From Halohasta litchfieldiae (GTDB lineage: Archaea > Halobacteriota > Halobacteria > Halobacteriales > Haloferacaceae): a stretch of DNA of 64,000 nt. The translations under genes and the position numbers were made by a program. Of the stretch, positions 21,403 to 45,424 are shown piece after piece. The notes beneath the pieces are model-generated. The model saw nothing but the letters and a program-made list of their open reading frames with translations. It made no database searches and had not been told where the DNA came from. The stretch's first letter is position 1. Each line of letters opens with the position of its first letter. The stretch covers positions 558,001-622,000 of the forward strand of contig NZ_CP024845.1 of assembly GCF_002788215.1 (NCBI RefSeq), read 5' to 3'.

Positions 21403-23304
21403 ATGGCTAGCGAGAAGATTCTCGGAATTGACCTTGGGACCACGAACAGCGCGTTCGCGGTAATGGAGGGTGGAGAGCCGGAGATCATCGTCAACTCGGA
21501 GGGTAACCGAACGACCCCGTCGGTTGTCGCGTTCTCCGATGACGACGAACGGCTTGTCGGCAAGCCAGCCAAAAACCAGGCTGTACAGAACCCTGATAAA
21601 ACGATCCAATCGATCAAACGCCACATGGGCGAGGAGGGGTACGAGGTTGAGGTTGAGGGCGAATCCTACACCCCCGAACAGATCTCGGCGATGATCCTCC
21701 AGAAGATCAAACGCGACGCCGAGGAGTATCTCGGCCACGATGTCGAGAAGGCCGTCATTACGGTTCCGGCCTACTTCAACGACAAACAGCGACAGGCAAC
21801 GAAAAACGCCGGTCAGATCGCCGGCTTCGAGGTCGAACGCATCGTCAACGAGCCGACCGCAGCCTCGATGGCCTACGGCCTCGACGACGAATCCGATCAG
21901 ACAGTTCTCGTCTACGATCTGGGTGGCGGCACGTTCGATGTGTCGGTCCTCGAACTCGGCGGCGGCGTCTACGATGTTGTCGCAACCAACGGTGACAACG
22001 ATCTCGGTGGCGACGACTGGGACCAGGCGATCATCGATCATCTCGCCACAGAGTTCAAAAACGATCACGGCATCGAACTCCGCGACGACCGACAGGCACT
22101 CCAGCGACTCAAGGAAGCCGCCGAAGAGGCCAAGATCGAACTCTCCTCGCGGAAAGAGGCGAAAATCAATCTGCCGTTCATCACAGCGACTGACTCCGGC
22201 CCGGTCCACCTCGAAACCTCGATCACCCGCGCAACCTTCGAGAAGATTACCTCGGATCTGATCGAGCGAACCGTCGGCCCGACAGAGCAGGCCATCGAAG
22301 ACGCCGGGATCTCCGACAGCGACATTGACGAGGTCATCCTCGTCGGTGGTTCGACCCGGATGCCACAGGTCGCTGACAAGGTCGAAGAGATCATCGGTCA
22401 AGAGCCAAAGAAGAACGTCAACCCCGACGAAGCCGTCGCCCTCGGTGCAGCGATTCAGGGCGGCGTCCTCGCAGGCGACGTCGACGACATCGTGCTGCTC
22501 GACGTGACCCCACTGAGCCTCGGTATCGAGGTCAAAGGCGGGCTCTTCGAGCGACTCATCGACAAGAACACGACGATCCCGACCGACGCCGCGAAGGTGT
22601 TCACCACCGCGGCGGACAACCAGACCTCGGTGCAGATCCGGGTGTTCCAAGGCGAACGCGAGATCGCCAACGAGAACGAACTGCTCGGGGAGTTCATGCT
22701 GACCGGCATCCCACCGTCACCGGCCGGCATGCCGCAGATCGAAGTCGAGTTCTCGATTGACGCCGACGGCATCGTCAACGTCTCGGCGGAGGATCAGGGC
22801 TCGGGCAACGCCGAGTCGATCACCATCGAGGGCGGTGCTGGACTCTCCGACGAGGAAGTCGACCGCATGCAGGAAGAAGCAGAGGAACACGCCGAAGAGG
22901 ACCAAGAGCGCCGCGAGCGCATCGAGGCACGCAACGACGCCGAGGGCGCAGTCCAGCGCGCCGAGTCGCTCCTCGAAGAGAACGAAGAGGCCGTCGACGA
23001 CGATCTCGAAGCCGGTATTCGAGACGCCATGGACGACGTCGAGGACGTGCTCGAAGACGAGGACGCCGACACCGAAGAGCTTCACGACGTGACCGAGGAA
23101 CTCACCGAAGAGCTTCAAGAGATCGGCAAGCAGATGTACGAAGGACAGGCCCAACAGGCTCAGGCCGGTGCTGGCGGTGCCGGTGCCGCGGGTGGTCCTG
23201 AGGGCGGCTTCGGTCCGGGCGGTCCCGACGGCGCGGCTGGCGAAGGCGACGAGTACGTCGACGCCGACTTCGAGGATGCGGACGAAGAAAAAGACGACGA
23301 GTAG
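21403..23304 (+). CDS. dnaK: Molecular chaperone DnaK (Hsp70), 633 aa
   Basis: ATP-driven chaperone. The nucleotide-binding domain starts with [19 protein letters not shown] and includes [19 protein letters not shown] and [10 protein letters not shown]. The linker [10 protein letters not shown] leads to the substrate-binding domain with [16 protein letters not shown]. The C-terminal lid is followed by a Gly/Ala-rich stretch and an acidic tail, as in bacterial-type DnaK, which haloarchaea are thought to have acquired from bacteria. Complete, with no insertions. Confidence 0.98.
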
Positions 23305-23420: not shown

Positions 23421-24857
23421 ATGTCCGCCAGTCGACCGAACGTCCTCCTACTTTTGACCGACCAAGAGCGTGCCGACCTCGTGGCTCCCGACGGGCTACC
23501 GGTCGACACGCCGAATATCGACCGCCTCCGCGAGGAGGGAATGTGGTTCGAGTCGGCCTACACGCCGACGAGCATCTGTACGAGTGCCCGTGCCTCATTG
23601 TTAACCGGCCTCTATTCGCATGCTCACGGCCTGCTTAACAACAGCCACGAGGCGGATGCGATCCGAACCGATCTCCCCGAGGAGCTGCCGACGCTCGGTG
23701 AACTCCTCGCAGAGAGTGGCTACACCAACACCTATCTCGGGAAATGGCACGTCAGCCACAATCACACGCCCGGTGATTTCGGGTTTCGGTACTTCGGGGG
23801 GAGCGACTATCACCACGACAACTTCGATGTGGCGTTCGAACACTTCCGGGAGTCACAGGGAATCAGGGTCCCCGAAGTCGATGTCGAAGATAAAATCTAT
23901 GCCGGTGAGGGTGACGACACCACCCTCATCGCAGGCACTGATCCAGTGCCAGTCGAGGCCTCGCGGCCCTACTTTCTGGCCGAACGGACGATCAACGCGC
24001 TGGAACGCTGGGTCGACGACGACCGGCAACCCTGTTTCCACCGCACCGACTTCCTCGGTCCACACCACCCGTATGTCGTCCCCGAACCCTACGCGTCGAT
24101 GTACGAGCCGACCGAGATCGAGCCGTGGTCAAACTACGCCGAAACCTTCGAGAGCAAGCCGCGTGTCCACGAGCAGTATCTTCACTACCGGGGCGTAGAG
24201 GGCTTCGAGTGGGAGACGTGGGCCGAAGCCATCGCGAAGTATTTCGGCTTCATGACGCTGATCGACGACCAGATCGGCCGGATTCTCGACGCCCTCGACG
24301 ATCTCGGCATGGCAGACAAGACGGCTGTCGTCCATACCTCGGATCACGGCGATCTCACGGGGTCACACCGCCTGTTCAACAAGGGGCCGATGATGTACGA
24401 CGAAACCTACCGAATCCCCCTCGTCGTTCGGTGGCCGGGTGTCGTCGACCCCGGCAGCCAGTCGACCGACTTCGTCCGTCTCCACGATCTGATGCCGACG
24501 TTTCTCGATTGGGCCGGTATCGAACCTCCTGAGGGGATCCACGCCCGGAGTATACAGCCCCTACTAATGGGCGACCTCCCGGATGACTGGCCAGCGTCGA
24601 CCTACGCCCAGTACCATGGCGACGAGTTCGGCCTCTACTCACAGCGGATGGTCCGAACTGAGGAGTACAAGTTCATATATAATGGGCCGGATCGAAACGA
24701 ACTGTACGATCTGACGGCAGATCCCCACGAACTCCGGAATCTCGCCGACCATCCGGCGTATGCGGACGTGCAACGGGAGATGGAGGGTCGGCTGGTCGAC
24801 TGGATGGACGAGGTCGACGATTCGCTCCGGCGGTGGGTGCCGAAAACACTGCAATAA
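23421..24857 (+). CDS. Sulfatase-family hydrolase, 478 aa
   Basis: Alkaline-phosphatase-superfamily enzyme of the arylsulfatase/choline-sulfatase type. The N-terminal metal site NVLLLLTDQERAD, the nucleophile region SICTSARASLLTG, GKWHVSHN and HTSDHGDLTGSHRLFNKG are all visible. The formylglycine motif is CTSAR: the Cys is present, but the usual third residue (Pro or Ala) is Ser, so enzymatic maturation is uncertain. No signal peptide, so it is probably cytoplasmic. Start at the ATG at 23421; the upstream GTG at 23394 adds nine unlikely residues. A 7-bp hairpin with one G-T pair (24863-24881) follows the stop. Substrate unknown. Confidence 0.85.
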   Translation: MSASRPNVLLLLTDQERADLVAPDGLPVDTPNIDRLREEGMWFESAYTPTSICTSARASLLTGLYSHAHGLLNNSHEADAIRTDLPEELPTLGELLAESGYTNTYLGKWHVSHNHTPGDFGFRYFGGSDYHHDNFDVAFEHFRESQGIRVPEVDVEDKIYAGEGDDTTLIAGTDPVPVEASRPYFLAERTINALERWVDDDRQPCFHRTDFLGPHHPYVVPEPYASMYEPTEIEPWSNYAETFESKPRVHEQYLHYRGVEGFEWETWAEAIAKYFGFMTLIDDQIGRILDALDDLGMADKTAVVHTSDHGDLTGSHRLFNKGPMMYDETYRIPLVVRWPGVVDPGSQSTDFVRLHDLMPTFLDWAGIEPPEGIHARSIQPLLMGDLPDDWPASTYAQYHGDEFGLYSQRMVRTEEYKFIYNGPDRNELYDLTADPHELRNLADHPAYADVQREMEGRLVDWMDEVDDSLRRWVPKTLQ

Positions 24858-25208
24858 CTGGGGTTCGGTCACCAACTGAACGGTCGACAGTAGCATCCGC
24901 GGATGTGACTGGAAAGCAGGATATCAGGAATTGTGTACAGTATCTGACCGAGTTATCTACCGTCTACCCGTCAGTAGGCGTAGTTATCTTGCAGAAGATA
25001 CTGGCCGAAGACACCCTCTCGGAGACAGTCTCACCTGTTTGTACGGTCGAAAAATCGATAGAATCGGTACGTCTCGGTAGTAGGTATATCTACTACCCAC
25101 TTATTCTAGTAGTGATTTTATAAAATCCTGTAGGTGACTGATTACAATAGGGTTATCCAGTGGAGTATCCGGTACTCTTCGGCCCGAAAACGGCTGGGAG
25201 GACCAACC
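24858..25208. other. 350-bp gap between sulfatase and beta-helix protein genes
   Basis: AT-richer than its flanks. It holds a weak hairpin after the sulfatase (24863-24881) and TATA-like runs near 25083-25125 that could serve the secreted-protein gene with a leader of about 60-90 nt. I see no RNA gene or conserved open frame. Confidence 0.5.
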
Positions 25209-27350
25209 ATGTCCGACGAACGAAAGCTATCCAGACGAGCGAGCCTCCGAGGAATCGTAGCGACCGGCGCAATCATCAGCGGTACCAGCCTCAGTGCCGG
25301 GACGGTCAGCGCGAGCGAAAAAAAGGTCGACAGCATCAAAGAAATCGATTTCAAGGACTGTCATTCGATGGCCGTACACCTCAAAGACGGCCATGAAACG
25401 GTCCCAATCACGATTAGGGCCTACAACGACGACAGCGAGCGAATCGAAAACATCCAGCAGACGATCAAGAAAAAAGAGCTGCTGCCGTACGAATTGTGGA
25501 AGGAGATCCACGACGGCAACGACCACGAGGACGATCTCGACGATTACGACGACCACGACGACAAAAAGAAAGACGACGACCACGACGAGAAGTGTCTCTG
25601 CGGTGAGCACGATGATGACGACCACAAAAAGAAAGGCGACCACGACCGCAAATACGTCTGGACGTTCGACATCTACCAGTTCTACGACCACGCTATCGAC
25701 GCCGACGACAAGATCCTCTCGGTAAAAGTCGGCGACAAGCGGATCAAAAACACCAACGACTGCGCCAAGAAATACTCCAACGACTACGACAAGAAGGGCG
25801 ATATCGACACCGACGACATCGGCCTCGTGGCGATCTGTGTCAATAGCGACACCAACACCGCACGCTACCGCGTCGACAACTGGAACAAAAAGGCGGTCAC
25901 GGTCCAGTACGACGTCTACAACACCGACCGTGGCGGCGAGATGATGGTCGAACCCAAGAGCACGACCTACTTCGATGTCGAGGCGAGTGGCTCGGGTGGC
26001 GAAGCGACCGTCCGACTGTTCTACGAGGGCGAGGAGATCGACGTCAAAGCCAGCAACACCGAGCGCGACTGCCTCGCCGAGAACGATGTCGCGTTTAGCG
26101 TGAACGATATCGACTTCTCGAAACGGAAAATCGAGTTCTATCTCCACGACGGAACCGACTTCGACCGGACGTTCAACTACTACAACTATGAGACTGGAGC
26201 CGCGGGGACGATCACGGTTCACGACGACCCTGCCAGTGCCGAAACGTTCTGGGTGGACGCACCGCGCTGCAAGGCATCGGTCACACTGTTCTACCAGGGC
26301 CACGTTGTCGGCAAGGCCAAAAACGACAGTGATCTCGACGGGCCAGTAGTCAACAAAACCCAACAGGAGAGCTACGAGACGATCCAAGAGGCGGTCGACG
26401 ACGCCAACGAGGGCGATACGATCATCGTCTGCGAGGACCAGGAACCCGACGGGACGGTTGTGGTCGACGTAGAGAACCTCACGATAGAAGGGTTCGAAAA
26501 ACCGGTTGTCGAGGTGAACGCCAGTTCTGCATTCAGCATTGAGGCCGACGGCGTAACAGTTGACGGCCTCGAAATACGAAATCCGGCAAGTGGGATCTCG
26601 GCTACCCCGGGCGACTTCAGTGGGGCCGTCGGGATAACTGTCAGTGCCGGAAGTGAGGACGCGTGTATACAAAACAATGTGATCACCGAGATTGGAACAG
26701 AGAACGACGACGCGAACGCAATCGGAGTTCTGGCGAATGACGGCACCAGCGGGATCAAGATCAAGAACAACAAAATCACCAACCTCGAAGGGACTGACGA
26801 AGACCAAGGTGCTGTGCAAGCGATCCTGATCGACGAATCGGGCACACCGATCACCGACGTGAAGGTCAAAGACAATACGATCAGCGACCTGCTCGACACG
26901 CGCTCGACAGTTGCTGTCCGATTCAATGGCGACGTTTCCGGTGACATTACTGACAACGACATCAGCGATCTGAACACCGAAGGAACGATTCCCGGTTCAG
27001 GTGGCGATCCCGGTGGCTTCACGCAGGTTATTTCGCTGGCTCGAGGCGGCGCTAGTACTAACGGTCCTTCGAATGTCACCATCGAAGACAACTCCATTTC
27101 TGACATCGAGACGACGACTCCGGACAACTTCTTTGCACCGACCCATATCATCGTCGGAGCAGATGCGGACGCAGCGACGATTACCATCGAATCGAACGAC
27201 TTCTCCGGAGACAGTACTGACGACGACGAATTCTACGTCATCGACGAGACTGGCGATCTCGATCTGAATACTGTGCTGGATGACAACAGCTTCAATCCGC
27301 CCGGAGATGTCACTTCGTTCAACGGTGGCGCAATCGTGAGAGACGACTAG
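25209..27350 (+). CDS. Tat-exported beta-helix surface protein with an Asp/His/Lys-rich tract, 713 aa
   Basis: Not a named family. The N-terminus (LSRRASLRGIVATGAIISG) is a Tat signal, cleaved probably near VSA-SEKK. Residues about 101-148 form a low-complexity tract of Asp, His and Lys around a CLCGEH motif, a plausible metal-binding region. Two similar beta-sandwich-like segments follow, each ending in related sequence (ATVRLFYEGEEID and ASVTLFYQGHVVG). From residue about 390 a right-handed beta-helix begins with ETIQEAVDDANEGDTIIV (NosD/pectate-lyase-like opening) and many N-N-x-I turns. There is no C-terminal sorting signal or catalytic motif that I can identify. It has high lysine for a haloarchaeon. 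Start at 25209 places the twin arginines at residues 9-10. Confidence 0.75.
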   Translation: MSDERKLSRRASLRGIVATGAIISGTSLSAGTVSASEKKVDSIKEIDFKDCHSMAVHLKDGHETVPITIRAYNDDSERIENIQQTIKKKELLPYELWKEIHDGNDHEDDLDDYDDHDDKKKDDDHDEKCLCGEHDDDDHKKKGDHDRKYVWTFDIYQFYDHAIDADDKILSVKVGDKRIKNTNDCAKKYSNDYDKKGDIDTDDIGLVAICVNSDTNTARYRVDNWNKKAVTVQYDVYNTDRGGEMMVEPKSTTYFDVEASGSGGEATVRLFYEGEEIDVKASNTERDCLAENDVAFSVNDIDFSKRKIEFYLHDGTDFDRTFNYYNYETGAAGTITVHDDPASAETFWVDAPRCKASVTLFYQGHVVGKAKNDSDLDGPVVNKTQQESYETIQEAVDDANEGDTIIVCEDQEPDGTVVVDVENLTIEGFEKPVVEVNASSAFSIEADGVTVDGLEIRNPASGISATPGDFSGAVGITVSAGSEDACIQNNVITEIGTENDDANAIGVLANDGTSGIKIKNNKITNLEGTDEDQGAVQAILIDESGTPITDVKVKDNTISDLLDTRSTVAVRFNGDVSGDITDNDISDLNTEGTIPGSGGDPGGFTQVISLARGGASTNGPSNVTIEDNSISDIETTTPDNFFAPTHIIVGADADAATITIESNDFSGDSTDDDEFYVIDETGDLDLNTVLDDNSFNPPGDVTSFNGGAIVRDD

Positions 27351-27370
27351 ACGAGAATTCACGAACTCCC

Positions 27371-27417
27371 GACACCACACGATACCGATGGTGTCACTCC
27401 CTCCGGGTTTCTTTTGA
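27371..27417 (+). terminator. Hairpin plus T-rich terminator after the beta-helix gene
   Basis: GACACCA (27371-27377) and TGGTGTC (27389-27395) pair perfectly with an 11-nt loop. The T-rich GGGTTTCTTTTG follows at 27406-27417. It sits 21 bp after the stop codon. Confidence 0.65.
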
Positions 27418-27513
27418 TGGCAGAGATCACAAACGACTCGTGTCGAACTCAGTGCAGTAGCGGAGGGATCACGGCATCCCGCTGACTGTGTCTGGATGTG
27501 TTCTATCTATTGA

Positions 27514-28085
27514 TGTATTATTAGTTACCTCCGCAACACATCCTTCGAAAGACGAACGCTCACGCCCGACGAGGATATCATCGCCTTCCTCTACGCGGAT
27601 ACGCTGGGTAGCATCAGCCGAATTGCTCAGCTCTCCGATGTGGGGTATGCTACTGTCGACACGACCATCCGCAGGTCGAAGCCGCTTGTGATCGCGGTTT
27701 CGACCTTGTCTGGACACGTATCCAAGAAGATGGTGACAGTCCTCCCCAGATCGACGAAACGGGCCAGCAACGTTCTGGCTTCAAGCGACAGACGCCGACG
27801 CGAGACGGTCTGTTCGACGGCTCGGGCGAACCGGGGAGATCACGCTGGAAACGTACAGCAGGCGAGACAGTGATACTCGTTGGACGTGTCGAGAGACACT
27901 CCGCGTGATTCGTGGAGCGTGATGCACAACCTGACGAACTGGGACGGACGCTTGATGAGGTAGAGATCCTCTCAGGGATGATTGATGAACGGTGGTCTGG
28001 CGGGGAGCGCGGCTACGCGCCACCCGTTTATCACACCGAAAAGGTCGTTCCACACTCCGAAGACATCGAAGCGAAAAGTCGAACT
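27514..28085 (+). pseudogene. Decayed DDE-type transposase remnant
   Basis: Three consecutive pieces read as one protein only if frameshifts and a stop are ignored. 27514-27700 encodes TLTPDEDIIAFLYADTLGS and an HTH-like SRIAQLSDVGYATVDTTIRR. A frame change near 27700 then gives VWTRIQEDGD, QIDETGQQRSGFKRQTP and EPGRSRWKR up to a TGA at 27906. Beyond it, in frame, is ERDAQPDELGRTLDE, MIDERWSGGERGY and VVPHSED. The order (HTH, then 'DE' motif, then later acidic motif) resembles haloarchaeal IS1595/ISXO2-like transposases, but the family is uncertain and I see no clear terminal repeats. Non-functional. Confidence 0.55.
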
Positions 28086-28092
28086 CCGTCGA

Positions 28093-29019
28093 CTATCGGT
28101 GACTCAGGCGAGCCCCGACAACCAGTGCAAACATCGCCACAACCGTTCCGACGATGCCGAAGCCGGGGGCTTCGTCGGCTGTCGCAGAGCCATCGTCTCC
28201 GTCCGTCTCGTTCGCATCAGTGCCGTTGCCTGCTGTCGTTTCGTTCGTGTCGACACCTGTTGCAGTCTCGTTTTCGGCTGGATTGTCCGAGGCGAGCTGC
28301 AACACGACGACGACCTGTCCGTGTGATTCTGATTCGCGGTAGGTCCAGCCGCCGCCGGTCTCCTCGTAGGAGGTTGCAGCCTCGAGTGGATCGATATCCG
28401 TCTCCCACGTACTGGTTTTTTCGATGTAGCCGACAACTTCGATCCGATCCGCGTGGTCGCCGTCGACATTGGCTTCGCCGTACGAGATCTCCGCGTCGAC
28501 GGCCGGGCCGTGGAACTCGATACAGTGGCTATCCATGTAGCCATCACCTTGGCCGATGTCGTCGGCAGTGCCGAACTGATCGGAGTCGAGCGGTCGGTCG
28601 TAGTGGTCGGTGAGCGGATACTCGACGGTCATCGGATCGGCACCGCTGTGCCACTCCAGAGTCTCGCCGGTCGGAATCGTGACGGTCGTGTTCGGAACTG
28701 TCTCGCCAACGATTGGCTCGCCCGCCTCGTTGAGCAGGACCGTGCAGATCTTTCCCGATCCATCGCCGAGATACGGATCACGATACTCGTCGCGGGGGTT
28801 GACGTAGCTCACCCAGCGGCCGTCGCTGGCCTCCGCCTCGAAATACTCGTCGCCGGGCTCGGGCGCCGGCTGACTGTATGCTGCTTCGGTTACTGAACTA
28901 TTGGCTTCCTGCGCAGCGACGGCTGCAGGAGTACTGATACTGCCGATGAGACAGACACACAACAGAACGGTGAGAACGATCCGGCTGCGGTGCAAGCCTC
29001 GTGAGTGTTGCTGTGACAT
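28093..29019 (-). CDS. Secreted PGF-CTERM surface protein, 308 aa
   Basis: Exported protein of unknown function, probably anchored by archaeosortase A processing. There is a Sec-type signal (IVLTVLLCVCLIGSISTPAAVAAQE) at residues about 14-38, then an acidic ectodomain with a conserved-looking YFEAEASDGRWVSYVNPRDEYR opening. A Thr/Asn/Glu-rich, likely glycosylated linker follows (NETATGVDTNETTAG). The C-terminal tripartite signal PGFGIVGTVVAMFALVVG plus Arg is the PGF-CTERM tail. Start set at the ATG at 29019, giving a proper signal peptide. It lies between the transposase remnant and a sulfatase-fold gene. Confidence 0.78.
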   Translation of the reverse strand: MSQQHSRGLHRSRIVLTVLLCVCLIGSISTPAAVAAQEANSSVTEAAYSQPAPEPGDEYFEAEASDGRWVSYVNPRDEYRDPYLGDGSGKICTVLLNEAGEPIVGETVPNTTVTIPTGETLEWHSGADPMTVEYPLTDHYDRPLDSDQFGTADDIGQGDGYMDSHCIEFHGPAVDAEISYGEANVDGDHADRIEVVGYIEKTSTWETDIDPLEAATSYEETGGGWTYRESESHGQVVVVLQLASDNPAENETATGVDTNETTAGNGTDANETDGDDGSATADEAPGFGIVGTVVAMFALVVGARLSHR

Positions 29020-29274
29020 TGTTGTCGTTCGTAGTGTCACTCGACGTACGCCGACACAGCAGTGAGGAAGGTCGACGGTGAATCGAGAGTGACAATCCCA
29101 CTGCTGGCTACACCGGTCGATCATTTAGGTATACTCTGGATAACCGACACAATAGCTGGCTCACCTGTCGCAGCGTCCGATACTCGCGGCAGTAAACAGT
29201 GTCTACCCTAGCGTAGCCGCCTCCTACCACTCGTATGCGGTCGAAAACTGTACCAACACGACTGGCAACTCGGG

Positions 29275-30786
29275 TTAGAGATAGCCCAAATCAGCAAGCC
29301 GCTGTTCGGTCGACGCACTCATCGCCACGCTGGTCTGGGTCGTGTGATCTCGTTCGACAGTCCCCAGCCAGTCATCGAGTTTGGTGTCGAGTCGAGCGAC
29401 AAGCGCCGGTCGCTGGTCGACCCGGTTCTGTCGTTCACTGCTCGCGGCAGGATACAGCCATTGACTGCCATCCGACCCCCTGATGTAGGTCGCTTGGTTG
29501 GTTCGAACCGAACGAAGTGACCGGTCGAAGGCTTTCACGCGGTCAGGGAGCTCGCCGAACCGGGCTTCCAGCGAGTCGACGGATGGCTGGGGCTGAACGT
29601 GTTCGGCGTAGACGGCTTCACGAGGAGGCGTGGTCGACTGCGGGTGAAACGATTGGCCCTGCAGTTGCGTGAGGAGTTCAGGGGCCGAAATCCCGGTTTC
29701 GTCCAGCAGGGTCGGAACCAGATCCAGCAGTTGGACGAGCGACTCCTGTTGGCCACCACCTGAAAACGCCCCGCCGGAGATAACCAGCGGCACGTGGACG
29801 ACCGTCTCGTGGAGGTTGTACTGGTGACCAAAAAAGCCGTACTCGCCGATGTTTTCGCCATGGTCACCAAGCACGACGAAAATCGTGTTCTCCCACTCAC
29901 CGGCAGCCTGTAGCGACTCCCGGAGTCGACCGATCTGGGCGTCGACGTAGGCGAGTTCCCCCTGATACAGCCCGCGGAGCAGTTCACACTCTCGATCTGT
30001 GAGTTCGTAGTCGCCAACATCGAAGGCCCGAGGATCCTGTCGAAGCTGGATTGCCTCCTCAACCGCCGATGACGAGAGGAACTGTTCAGCGTACTCTCGG
30101 GGTGGATCGTACTCGATGTGGGGTTCGATGTAGTTACAGAACAGAAAAAACGGCTGGTCGTCCCCGTTTGTTTTTCGCCTAGTGAGCCAGGTGTCGACCC
30201 AATCGGTCGTCCGGGCGGCACCGTCGTCGTCACAGAGATATCGTTCGTAGGCAACGTTGGCGAGTGTGATCGCTGGATTGCCCGCCAGTAGCTGCTCTCT
30301 AAGTGACGTTAGTCGCTCACTAACACCGCTAGCACGGACGACCGCACCGGTGTCGACCTCGCTTTGGATGTACTGCCAGCCCTTCCGAAACTGATCGAAG
30401 CCGCGGTCGAAGCCGAACTCGCCGGTGATCCAGCAGTTGTTCGAGACGCCGACCGTCTCGTAGCCAGCCGACTGGAAGGCTTCCGGCAGTGTTTCGTGGT
30501 CGGCATCGAGATAGGTGTGGCCGCCGTGGGCACCGTGGGCGGCGGTATACTGGCCGGTGAACAGTGAGGCGTGTGCAGGGAGTGTCCACGGAGCACTCGT
30601 GTAGGCGTGAGTGAACTCGGTTCCGGAGCCTGCCAGCGACGCCAGCGTCGGGGTAATAGCGGACGTTGCGGGCACCGTTTCTCTGGCGCGGGCCGTATCC
30701 ATGACGACGAGAACAATGTTTGGCGCGTCCCCGTCGCCGAGATCATGGGGTTCAGATGTATCGTCCGAGTGGCTGTCGGGAGACAT
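29275..30786 (-). CDS. Sulfatase-superfamily enzyme without cysteine nucleophile, 503 aa
   Basis: Alkaline-phosphatase-superfamily hydrolase or phospho-/sulfotransferase. Metal-binding motifs are clear: NIVLVVMDTARA at the N-terminus, and FVVLGDHGENIGEYGFFGHQ towards the middle. The nucleophile region reads SAPWTLPAHASLFTGQY, with Thr where formylglycine sulfatases have Cys or Ser; this is closer to phosphoglycerol-transferase/phosphodiesterase branches than to true sulfatases. No signal peptide or membrane helix, so it is probably cytoplasmic. Many haloarchaea carry this type near surface-glycan genes, and a surface-protein gene lies next to it. Substrate unknown. Confidence 0.82.
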   Translation of the reverse strand: MSPDSHSDDTSEPHDLGDGDAPNIVLVVMDTARARETVPATSAITPTLASLAGSGTEFTHAYTSAPWTLPAHASLFTGQYTAAHGAHGGHTYLDADHETLPEAFQSAGYETVGVSNNCWITGEFGFDRGFDQFRKGWQYIQSEVDTGAVVRASGVSERLTSLREQLLAGNPAITLANVAYERYLCDDDGAARTTDWVDTWLTRRKTNGDDQPFFLFCNYIEPHIEYDPPREYAEQFLSSSAVEEAIQLRQDPRAFDVGDYELTDRECELLRGLYQGELAYVDAQIGRLRESLQAAGEWENTIFVVLGDHGENIGEYGFFGHQYNLHETVVHVPLVISGGAFSGGGQQESLVQLLDLVPTLLDETGISAPELLTQLQGQSFHPQSTTPPREAVYAEHVQPQPSVDSLEARFGELPDRVKAFDRSLRSVRTNQATYIRGSDGSQWLYPAASSERQNRVDQRPALVARLDTKLDDWLGTVERDHTTQTSVAMSASTEQRLADLGYL

Positions 30787-30923: not shown

Positions 30924-31766
30924 ATGCGTGCGTTTCGTCTTGCCTACGATGGTCGCCCTTTTTATGGCTTTCAGCGACAGCCCGACGTTCCAACCGTCGA
31001 GGACACGCTGTTCGACGCTCTTCGGTCACTGTCGGTGCTGTCGACTGACGCCAGTCGACCAGTGGGGTATGCGGCGGCGGGCCGAACTGACACCGGGGTG
31101 TCGGCAGTCGCCCAGACGGTCGCGTTTGACGCCCCGGAATGGCTCAAGCCACGCGTGCTCAACAGCGAACTCCCCGGCACGATCCGGGCGTGGGCCAGCG
31201 CCGATGTCGACGACGACTTTCATGCGACTCACCACGCGGTCCGCCGGGAATACAGCTACCGGCTATATGCGCCACAGCATGAGGCCCAAAGTTTTGACGG
31301 TCGACCGCCAGTCGACGCGGATCGGGCAGCAGCCGCGCTTACGGCACTCTGTGGCAGCCACGATTTCCACAACCTGACCCCGGACGACGAGGGGACCCGA
31401 CGCGGGCTCTCGGGCTGGGTCGACCGCGATGGCGAGTTTTTGCTCATCGAGTTCGCGGCTGGTGGCTTCGCCCGCGAACTCGTCCGTCGACTCGTCTCGG
31501 TGATTCGACTCGTGGGAACTGGCCACCGAGATGTTGCATGGATCGAGAATCTCCTCGGCCCCGAGCCAGTCGAACAGCGTCCACCTGCGGCGCCACCCGA
31601 GCCACTGTTGCTTTCGGATGTTCGGTATCCGGGCGTCGACTTCGAGCGAGACCCGGAAGCCGCCGAGAGTGGGGCCGTCGCCTTCGGCGAGCGGGCCATT
31701 GAATCGCAGGCCCGGTCACGTGTCTCGCGGGCAGTCGTCGACCGACTCCGCGGTGGCGACCAGTAA
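30924..31766 (+). CDS. truA: tRNA pseudouridine synthase A, 280 aa
   Basis: Isomerises uridines in the tRNA anticodon stem-loop (positions 38-40). The start MRAFRLAYDGRPFYGFQRQP is typical, and the catalytic Asp (D56) sits in AAGRTDTGVSA. Other motifs include VRREYSYRLYAPQ and the FLLIEFAAGGFARELVRRLV segment that lines the active site. Length matches the archaeal TruA. It is divergent from the sulfatase-fold gene, with a 137-bp gap. Confidence 0.95.
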   Translation: MRAFRLAYDGRPFYGFQRQPDVPTVEDTLFDALRSLSVLSTDASRPVGYAAAGRTDTGVSAVAQTVAFDAPEWLKPRVLNSELPGTIRAWASADVDDDFHATHHAVRREYSYRLYAPQHEAQSFDGRPPVDADRAAAALTALCGSHDFHNLTPDDEGTRRGLSGWVDRDGEFLLIEFAAGGFARELVRRLVSVIRLVGTGHRDVAWIENLLGPEPVEQRPPAAPPEPLLLSDVRYPGVDFERDPEAAESGAVAFGERAIESQARSRVSRAVVDRLRGGDQ

Positions 31767-44957: not shown

Positions 44958-45030
44958 CGCCCGGAGCGGGATTTGAACCCGCGTCACAACCGTGACAGGG
45001 TTGTATGATGGGCCACTACACCATCCGGGC
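44958..45030 (-). tRNA. tRNA-Asp (GTC), copy 1
   Basis: 73 nt with discriminator G, read on the minus strand. A 7-bp acceptor stem (GCCCGGA/TCCGGGC), anticodon stem CAACC/GGTTG with loop CTGTCAC (anticodon GTC), and T-arm GCGGG TTCAAAT CCCGC. No intron, CCA not encoded. A TATA-like CCTTAAAC lies about 35 bp upstream. Confidence 0.95.
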
Positions 45031-45225: not shown

Positions 45226-45351
45226 AGTGAGTCGTTTTACCGACTCACGGTGTTGCTGAGTACACGCTACGCTCACGGCTACGCCGTTCGCTGTCGTGGC
45301 GCGTAGCGCCACGCAAACGCGCTGCTCAGCGTTATTGTTCGTCGGAAAAAG

Positions 45352-45424
45352 CGCCCGGAGCGGGATTTGAACCCGCGTCACAACCGTGACAGGGTTGTAT
45401 GATGGGCCACTACACCATCCGGGC
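45352..45424 (-). tRNA. tRNA-Asp (GTC), copy 2
   Basis: Identical over all 73 positions, including the discriminator G, to the tRNA-Asp at 44958. Same orientation. A TATA-like CCTTATTTG is about 33 bp upstream. Confidence 0.95.

Follow-up and report, generated by a model that had tools for sequence, protein, structure and literature searches.

The closest described counterparts of the genes considered here, a pair of sulfatase-superfamily genes (S1 and S2) in a 64,000-nucleotide stretch of the haloarchaeon Halohasta litchfieldiae (NCBI RefSeq assembly GCF_002788215.1, contig NZ_CP024845.1, positions 558,001 to 622,000; hereafter the window), are Agl30 and Agl31 (VNG1056C/VNG1057C) of Halobacterium salinarum. 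According to the portions of the report available to us, these proteins sulfate N-glycan sugars; sulfation was affected when they were deleted and was gained in Haloferax volcanii when they were expressed there (PMC11980604). As described there, they resemble S1 and S2 in belonging to the alkaline-phosphatase superfamily, in being annotated as sulfatases and in lying near one another. Compared by description, their genes differ in residing within the aglB N-glycosylation cluster, whereas S1 and S2 are found between hisS and truA or beside the trehalose-synthesis genes otsA-otsB (otsAB).

Two further systems bear on the comparison. Formylglycine (FGly)-dependent sulfatases carry a [CS]-x-P-x-R maturation motif and, with Thr at the nucleophile position, formylglycine is not expected (available portions of PMC5066984). 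The trehalose derivative 2-sulfotrehalose is a known osmolyte in haloalkaliphilic archaea, and the otsAB genes of Natrialba magadii have been proposed to serve it (available portions of PMC3403918 and PMC2881530). The parts of PMC8600319 and PMC9995536 at hand name no sulfotransferase for 2-sulfotrehalose, and our literature search, which did not include Youssef et al. 2014, returned no paper naming one.

The host genome is a single contig of 3,332,022 bases. In the window, the gene order is dnaK, S1 (+), a 713-aa exported protein, an IS1595 remnant, a PGF-CTERM protein (-), S2 (-) and truA, with the following features (window coordinates):

23421..24857, plus strand: S1, cytosolic Cys-type sulfatase-fold protein, 478 aa, active-site motif C53-T-S-A-R57
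29275..30786, minus strand: S2, cytosolic Thr-type sulfatase-fold protein, 503 aa, motif PWT68-L-P-x-H72
24858..29274, no strand: inserted segment between the S1 and S2 stop codons, missing from genus mates G001 and G002
25209..27350, plus strand: passenger, Tat-exported probable beta-helix protein, 713 aa, RRASLRG signal, 89% identity to G003
27578..27848, no strand: IS1595-family transposase remnant, broken in all frames
28093..29019, minus strand: passenger, predicted surface-anchored PGF-CTERM protein, about 308 aa, seen in alignments of 7 and 30 orthologs
30924..31766, plus strand: truA, conserved S2 flank
21403..23304, plus strand: dnaK, Halohasta-specific S1 flank, replaces hisS

The five features from S1 to S2 that the original prediction had listed are all present at the positions given, and its designation of the two outer genes as sulfatase-superfamily members is borne out by Pfam matches to Sulfatase PF00884 (S1, E 6.2e-50, with PF16347 at E 6.3e-33; S2, E 1.3e-41).

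S1 and S2 are almost certainly an ancient convergent pair whose usual haloarchaeal place is between hisS and truA, with the exported-protein genes and the IS1595 element having been inserted later between the two stop codons. The age and usual place of the pair are read from the hisS/truA context shared across the fetched loci, in which genes were called with a simple codon-score script that shortened some ORFs. All 15 fetched loci holding the four genes display one order and orientation, hisS - S1> <S2 - truA. In Halohasta, grpE-dnaK occupies the usual hisS position; the genus mate G001, without the insert, reads dnaK - S1 - S2 - truA, the last codons of S1 and S2 overlapping at their stops, and in G002 truA, S2 and S1 are likewise adjacent. 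At an empty site (L091), hisS and truA lie 1 bp apart, and in L092 they are separated by two small genes. In 12 other loci, S2 sits beside truA with no S1 inside the fetched stretch. Both loci were also retrieved from four genomes in which S1 is widely separated from S2 or lies on another contig (G041, G042, G051 and G057); in two of these, G041 and G057, S1 is beside hisS. An S2 homolog with 42% identity (G004:C1:498787-499566) contains two in-frame TGA codons and is apparently a pseudogene; the hisS-truA site of that genome is empty.

Across 391 genomes of the class Halobacteria (presence called at E <= 1e-120), S1 was detected in 117, S2 in 169 and both in 113, the S1 genomes without S2 being G184, G193, G198 and G332. 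Outside family f7, 22 of the 26 genomes with S1 also have S2. Fisher co-occurrence tests (P 1e-44 and below) take no account of shared ancestry, and we do not treat them as proof. At least 88 of 120 S1 copies share a contig with a listed S2, with a separation of under 200 bp in at least 18 and under 7 kb in at least 28; neighbouring arrangements are of two kinds, convergent and tandem. What had been proposed as one accessory island, a sulfatase island for surface glycans, is thereby corrected: the two sulfatase-fold genes do belong together, as a conserved, functionally unassigned enzyme pair in 113 of the 391 genomes sampled, but the other genes do not belong with them. Similarly, the insertion hotspot suggested between core genes exists as an insertion site, but it sits between the S1 and S2 stop codons, and the usual home of the pair is hisS-truA and not dnaK-truA.

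The S1 gene product has the sulfatase fold with its metal and sulfate ligands. Residues D14, Q15, C53, R57, K108, H110, H215, D308, H309 and K321 show no variation across 12 orthologs, and D14-Q15, C53, R57, K108, H110, H215, D308-H309 and K321 correspond to the usual sulfatase ligands. Its top PDB match is the exo-2S-iota-carrageenan sulfatase 6pt4, a 2-O-sulfatase (E 3.5e-59). Set against the FGly sulfatases of SulfAtlas family S1, of which 6pt4 is the nearest solved, the protein shares the fold, the metal ligands, the nucleophile Cys and the sulfate-binding Lys/His; it differs in having C-x-S/A-A-R instead of C-x-P-x-R, in its cytosolic location and in that no maturase was found. The window copy reads CTSAR, outside the [CS]-x-P-x-R pattern, and 31 other copies read CTSAR (20), CSSAR (7) or CSAAR (2), with the pattern unmatched in 2. 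No FGE (PF03781) was found in the host genome, the sole genome searched for it. For anSME (TIGR03942), 4 of the 391 genomes gave a match, and these four include neither the host nor any other of the 117 S1-bearing genomes. The host encodes four PF00884 proteins, of which S1 is the sole Cys-type member. No hydrophobic stretch or signal peptide was found at the S1 N-terminus, and a search of viral contigs did not find S1.

S2 also differs from the FGly sulfatases: its nucleophile position holds Thr or Ser, and the sulfatase lysines are missing. Its signature is Thr68-x-P-x-His72, and Thr68 places it outside the Cys/Ser nucleophile requirement of that class. Residues T68, H72, H223, D308, H309 and H321 do not vary across 14 orthologs, and among 96 S2-cluster copies the nucleophile position is Thr in 79 and Ser in 4, with 13 unmatched by the pattern (all <=436 aa). 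As with S1, no hydrophobic stretch or signal peptide was found at its N-terminus. The structure 6HHM, which Agl31 is described as resembling (PMC11980604, portions available), is among the top PDB matches of S2; Agl31 is also described as soluble.

A tree of 90 S2-like proteins from the fetched loci places all 22 S1-adjacent S2 proteins in one clade (clade A; 46 genes, support 0.975), with 16 further genes as its sister (clade B; A+B support 0.996); 32 of the 46 clade-A genes have truA within 6 kb. Of the 46 clade-A S2 genes, 5 have the otsA-otsB pair within 4 kb, as do 2 of the 16 in clade B and none of the 28 others. In L149 (otsA-otsB-S2-S1, one strand), Pfam identified OtsA and OtsB, and tblastn with this pair located them in the other loci; the remaining arrangements are otsA-otsB-S2 (L078), S2-otsAB (L172) and S2 divergent from otsAB (L066, L150, L151 and L155, the last with Ser in place of Thr in S2). 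For 62 loci, a Poisson estimate puts the probability of finding at least four otsAB neighbours within 4 kb by chance at 1.3e-5; counting the arrangements as four independent events is our own judgement. The window itself yielded no otsA or otsB match in a search confined to its 64 kb. S1 is not the only sulfatase partner, because in six loci (L077, L152, L154, L157, L185 and L191) clade-B relatives of S2 are beside another sulfatase-fold gene, c35, one member of which bears a Cys-type C-M-P-A-R motif and so represents a second Thr-type/Cys-type pairing. A sulfatase gene of cluster c21, one member of which has the canonical CSPSR, was also seen near S2 in L193, L195, L197-L200, L210 and L078.

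Because of the otsAB linkage, the Agl30/Agl31 precedent and the match of S1 to the 2-O-sulfatase 6pt4, we propose, with a probability of roughly 0.4, that the pair acts on a cytosolic trehalose-type sugar. S2, whose nucleophile position holds Thr and which has none of the sulfatase lysines, would serve as a cytosolic sulfotransferase, comparable to Agl30/Agl31 and belonging to the alkaline-phosphatase superfamily, and S1 would be its antagonist, a cytosolic sulfatase that takes the sulfate off again. The substrate would most likely be a sugar osmolyte of the trehalose/2-sulfotrehalose type, and the beta-helix and PGF-CTERM proteins would have no part in S1/S2 function. S2, with or without S1, adjoins otsAB in 7 loci and may have a role in the OtsA-OtsB/2-sulfotrehalose pathway. 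The fully specified form of this proposal, in which S2 is the haloarchaeal sulfotransferase making 2-sulfotrehalose with a Thr nucleophile and S1 is the eraser, working with an unmodified Cys or an as-yet-undescribed maturase, we consider unlikely as it stands. Should the trehalose link hold, the pair would supply candidates for the genes that sulfate a known archaeal osmolyte; should the 2-sulfotrehalose version hold, S1 and S2 would constitute a writer/eraser pair for a sulfated osmolyte. Several points weigh against the proposal: both the reaction directions and the substrate are drawn exclusively from genomic context and active-site letters; only 7 of 62 clade-A and clade-B loci adjoin otsAB, 4 of the 7 from family f14; and S1 may not be a working sulfatase, since CTSAR is noncanonical and neither FGE nor anSME was found. 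The question arises as to how a Cys-type sulfatase would work in an archaeon in which no known formylglycine maturase was found.

The rival that survives best would have S1 and S2 both act as sulfotransferases (or both as hydrolases) on cell-envelope glycans or glycolipids, as VNG1056C/VNG1057C do for N-glycans; we regard it as doubtful. Agl30 and Agl31 are themselves sulfatase-fold sulfotransferases with neighbouring gene numbers (PMC11980604, as far as available), one of them sharing the likeness to 6HHM, and the failure to find a known maturase for S1 is what would be expected if formylglycine were not used. Glycosylation-type clusters occur near 24 of the 28 S2-like genes outside clades A and B, at least one of which (L182) lies near a gene for an STT3-domain, AglB-like protein. 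The term is our own label, applied to seven clusters of sequences: some were judged by eye to be glycosyltransferases or epimerases, three are sulfatase-fold neighbours, and Pfam was run on one AglB-like protein and one of these neighbours only. However, such clusters are near none of the 46 clade-A and none of the 16 clade-B genes, such that the N-glycosylation-cluster location characteristic of Agl30/Agl31 is absent from both clades, and S1 retains the sulfatase lysines and histidines.

Alternatively, the pair could be catabolic, with S1 as a scavenging sulfatase and S2 as a phosphoesterase that free sulfate or phosphate from imported organic esters, a scheme that we find quite improbable. 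The complete set of sulfatase metal and sulfate ligands in S1 would suit such a role, as would locus L074, where the genes after S1 include one for a solute-binding protein (Pfam SBP_bac_1) and others that appear to encode an ABC transporter; yet a transporter neighbour was noticed at this one S1 locus, without a systematic transporter scan of the others, and the usual neighbours of the pair are hisS and truA.

The original prediction, in which all genes of the segment jointly process sulfated surface or environmental polysaccharides, appears far-fetched, for although both insert-bearing Halohasta species have all of them and 98 of the 106 genomes with a PGF-CTERM ortholog also have S1, that overlap is explained by both being common in one family (f7), only one of the 43 PGF-CTERM loci fetched (that of the sister Halohasta) has S1/S2 nearby, the inter-stop gap elsewhere carries unrelated genes, and neither S1 nor S2 has an export signal. 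Processing of extracellular glycans is unlikely for the pair because both proteins lack a hydrophobic N-terminus, and the segment does not show the co-occurring unit with an exported sulfatase that would mark a polysaccharide utilisation locus.

The passengers are probably unrelated to S1 and S2, because the contents of the gap vary, PGF-CTERM genes are rarely near the pair and the beta-helix gene is itself rare; the synteny check called for in the original prediction did not bear out a linkage of these two genes with the sulfatases. The stop-to-stop gap measures 4417 bp in the window and 4306 bp in G003, the second Halohasta species, and in other clades it holds hydantoinase A/B with a PadR regulator, a histidine kinase, thioredoxin or a FilR1-type regulator. 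Between 24858 and 28092, GC content falls to 0.48-0.56 versus 0.60 for the whole window (24858-25208, 0.48; beta-helix gene, 0.555; transposase stretch, 0.559), with the PGF-CTERM gene at 0.611. The first 2.7 kb of the insert (24947-27629) is 85.8% identical to G003, versus 81.7% for S1, 79.9% for S2 and 77.1% for truA, which may reflect recent exchange or stronger constraint.

For the 713-aa protein, the proposed beta-helix fold has modest support: its top hits in the PDB come chiefly from beta-helix enzymes and tailspikes, though all are weaker than E 0.001, and its AlphaFold model is poor (mean pLDDT 40). An N-terminal twin-arginine signal, RRASLRG, was read by eye, and no Pfam family above cut-off, PHROGs or PADLOC family was matched. 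Beta-helix matches occur in 5 of 60 genomes, host counted; among the matches listed, G003 has the only full-length relative outside the window, and partial matches fall in four further places in three genomes. The transposase is indeed dead: positions 27578-27848 are about 66.5% identical in nucleotide sequence to annotated IS1595-family transposases on three Halococcus plasmids, with stops in all six frames, and decay may extend over roughly 27510-28080.

The PGF-CTERM protein, whose gene likely starts at ATG 29019 and not 29124, has the signal helix and C-terminal PGFG, hydrophobic segment and basic tail of archaeosortase substrates, features common to its orthologs, but scores 20.6 bits against TIGR04126, below the 24.5 cut-off. 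Unlike known PGF-CTERM surface proteins, it represents a conserved family (orthologs in 106 of the 391 genomes) without a Pfam match, and a PDB fold search gave none at E 0.001. A viral origin or a defence system was considered for the segment and rejected, with no PHROGs match for the two passengers and no PADLOC match for any of the four proteins. A link of the PGF-CTERM gene to trehalose genes was also set aside: four of 43 PGF-CTERM loci (L100, L107, L114 and L118, of Natronorubrum/Haloterrigena type) have otsA some 8 kb downstream, all with similar gene order, probably reflecting shared synteny. Elsewhere in the window, the minus strand carries two tRNA-Asp (GTC) genes (44958-45030 and 45351-45424) with about 320 bases between them.

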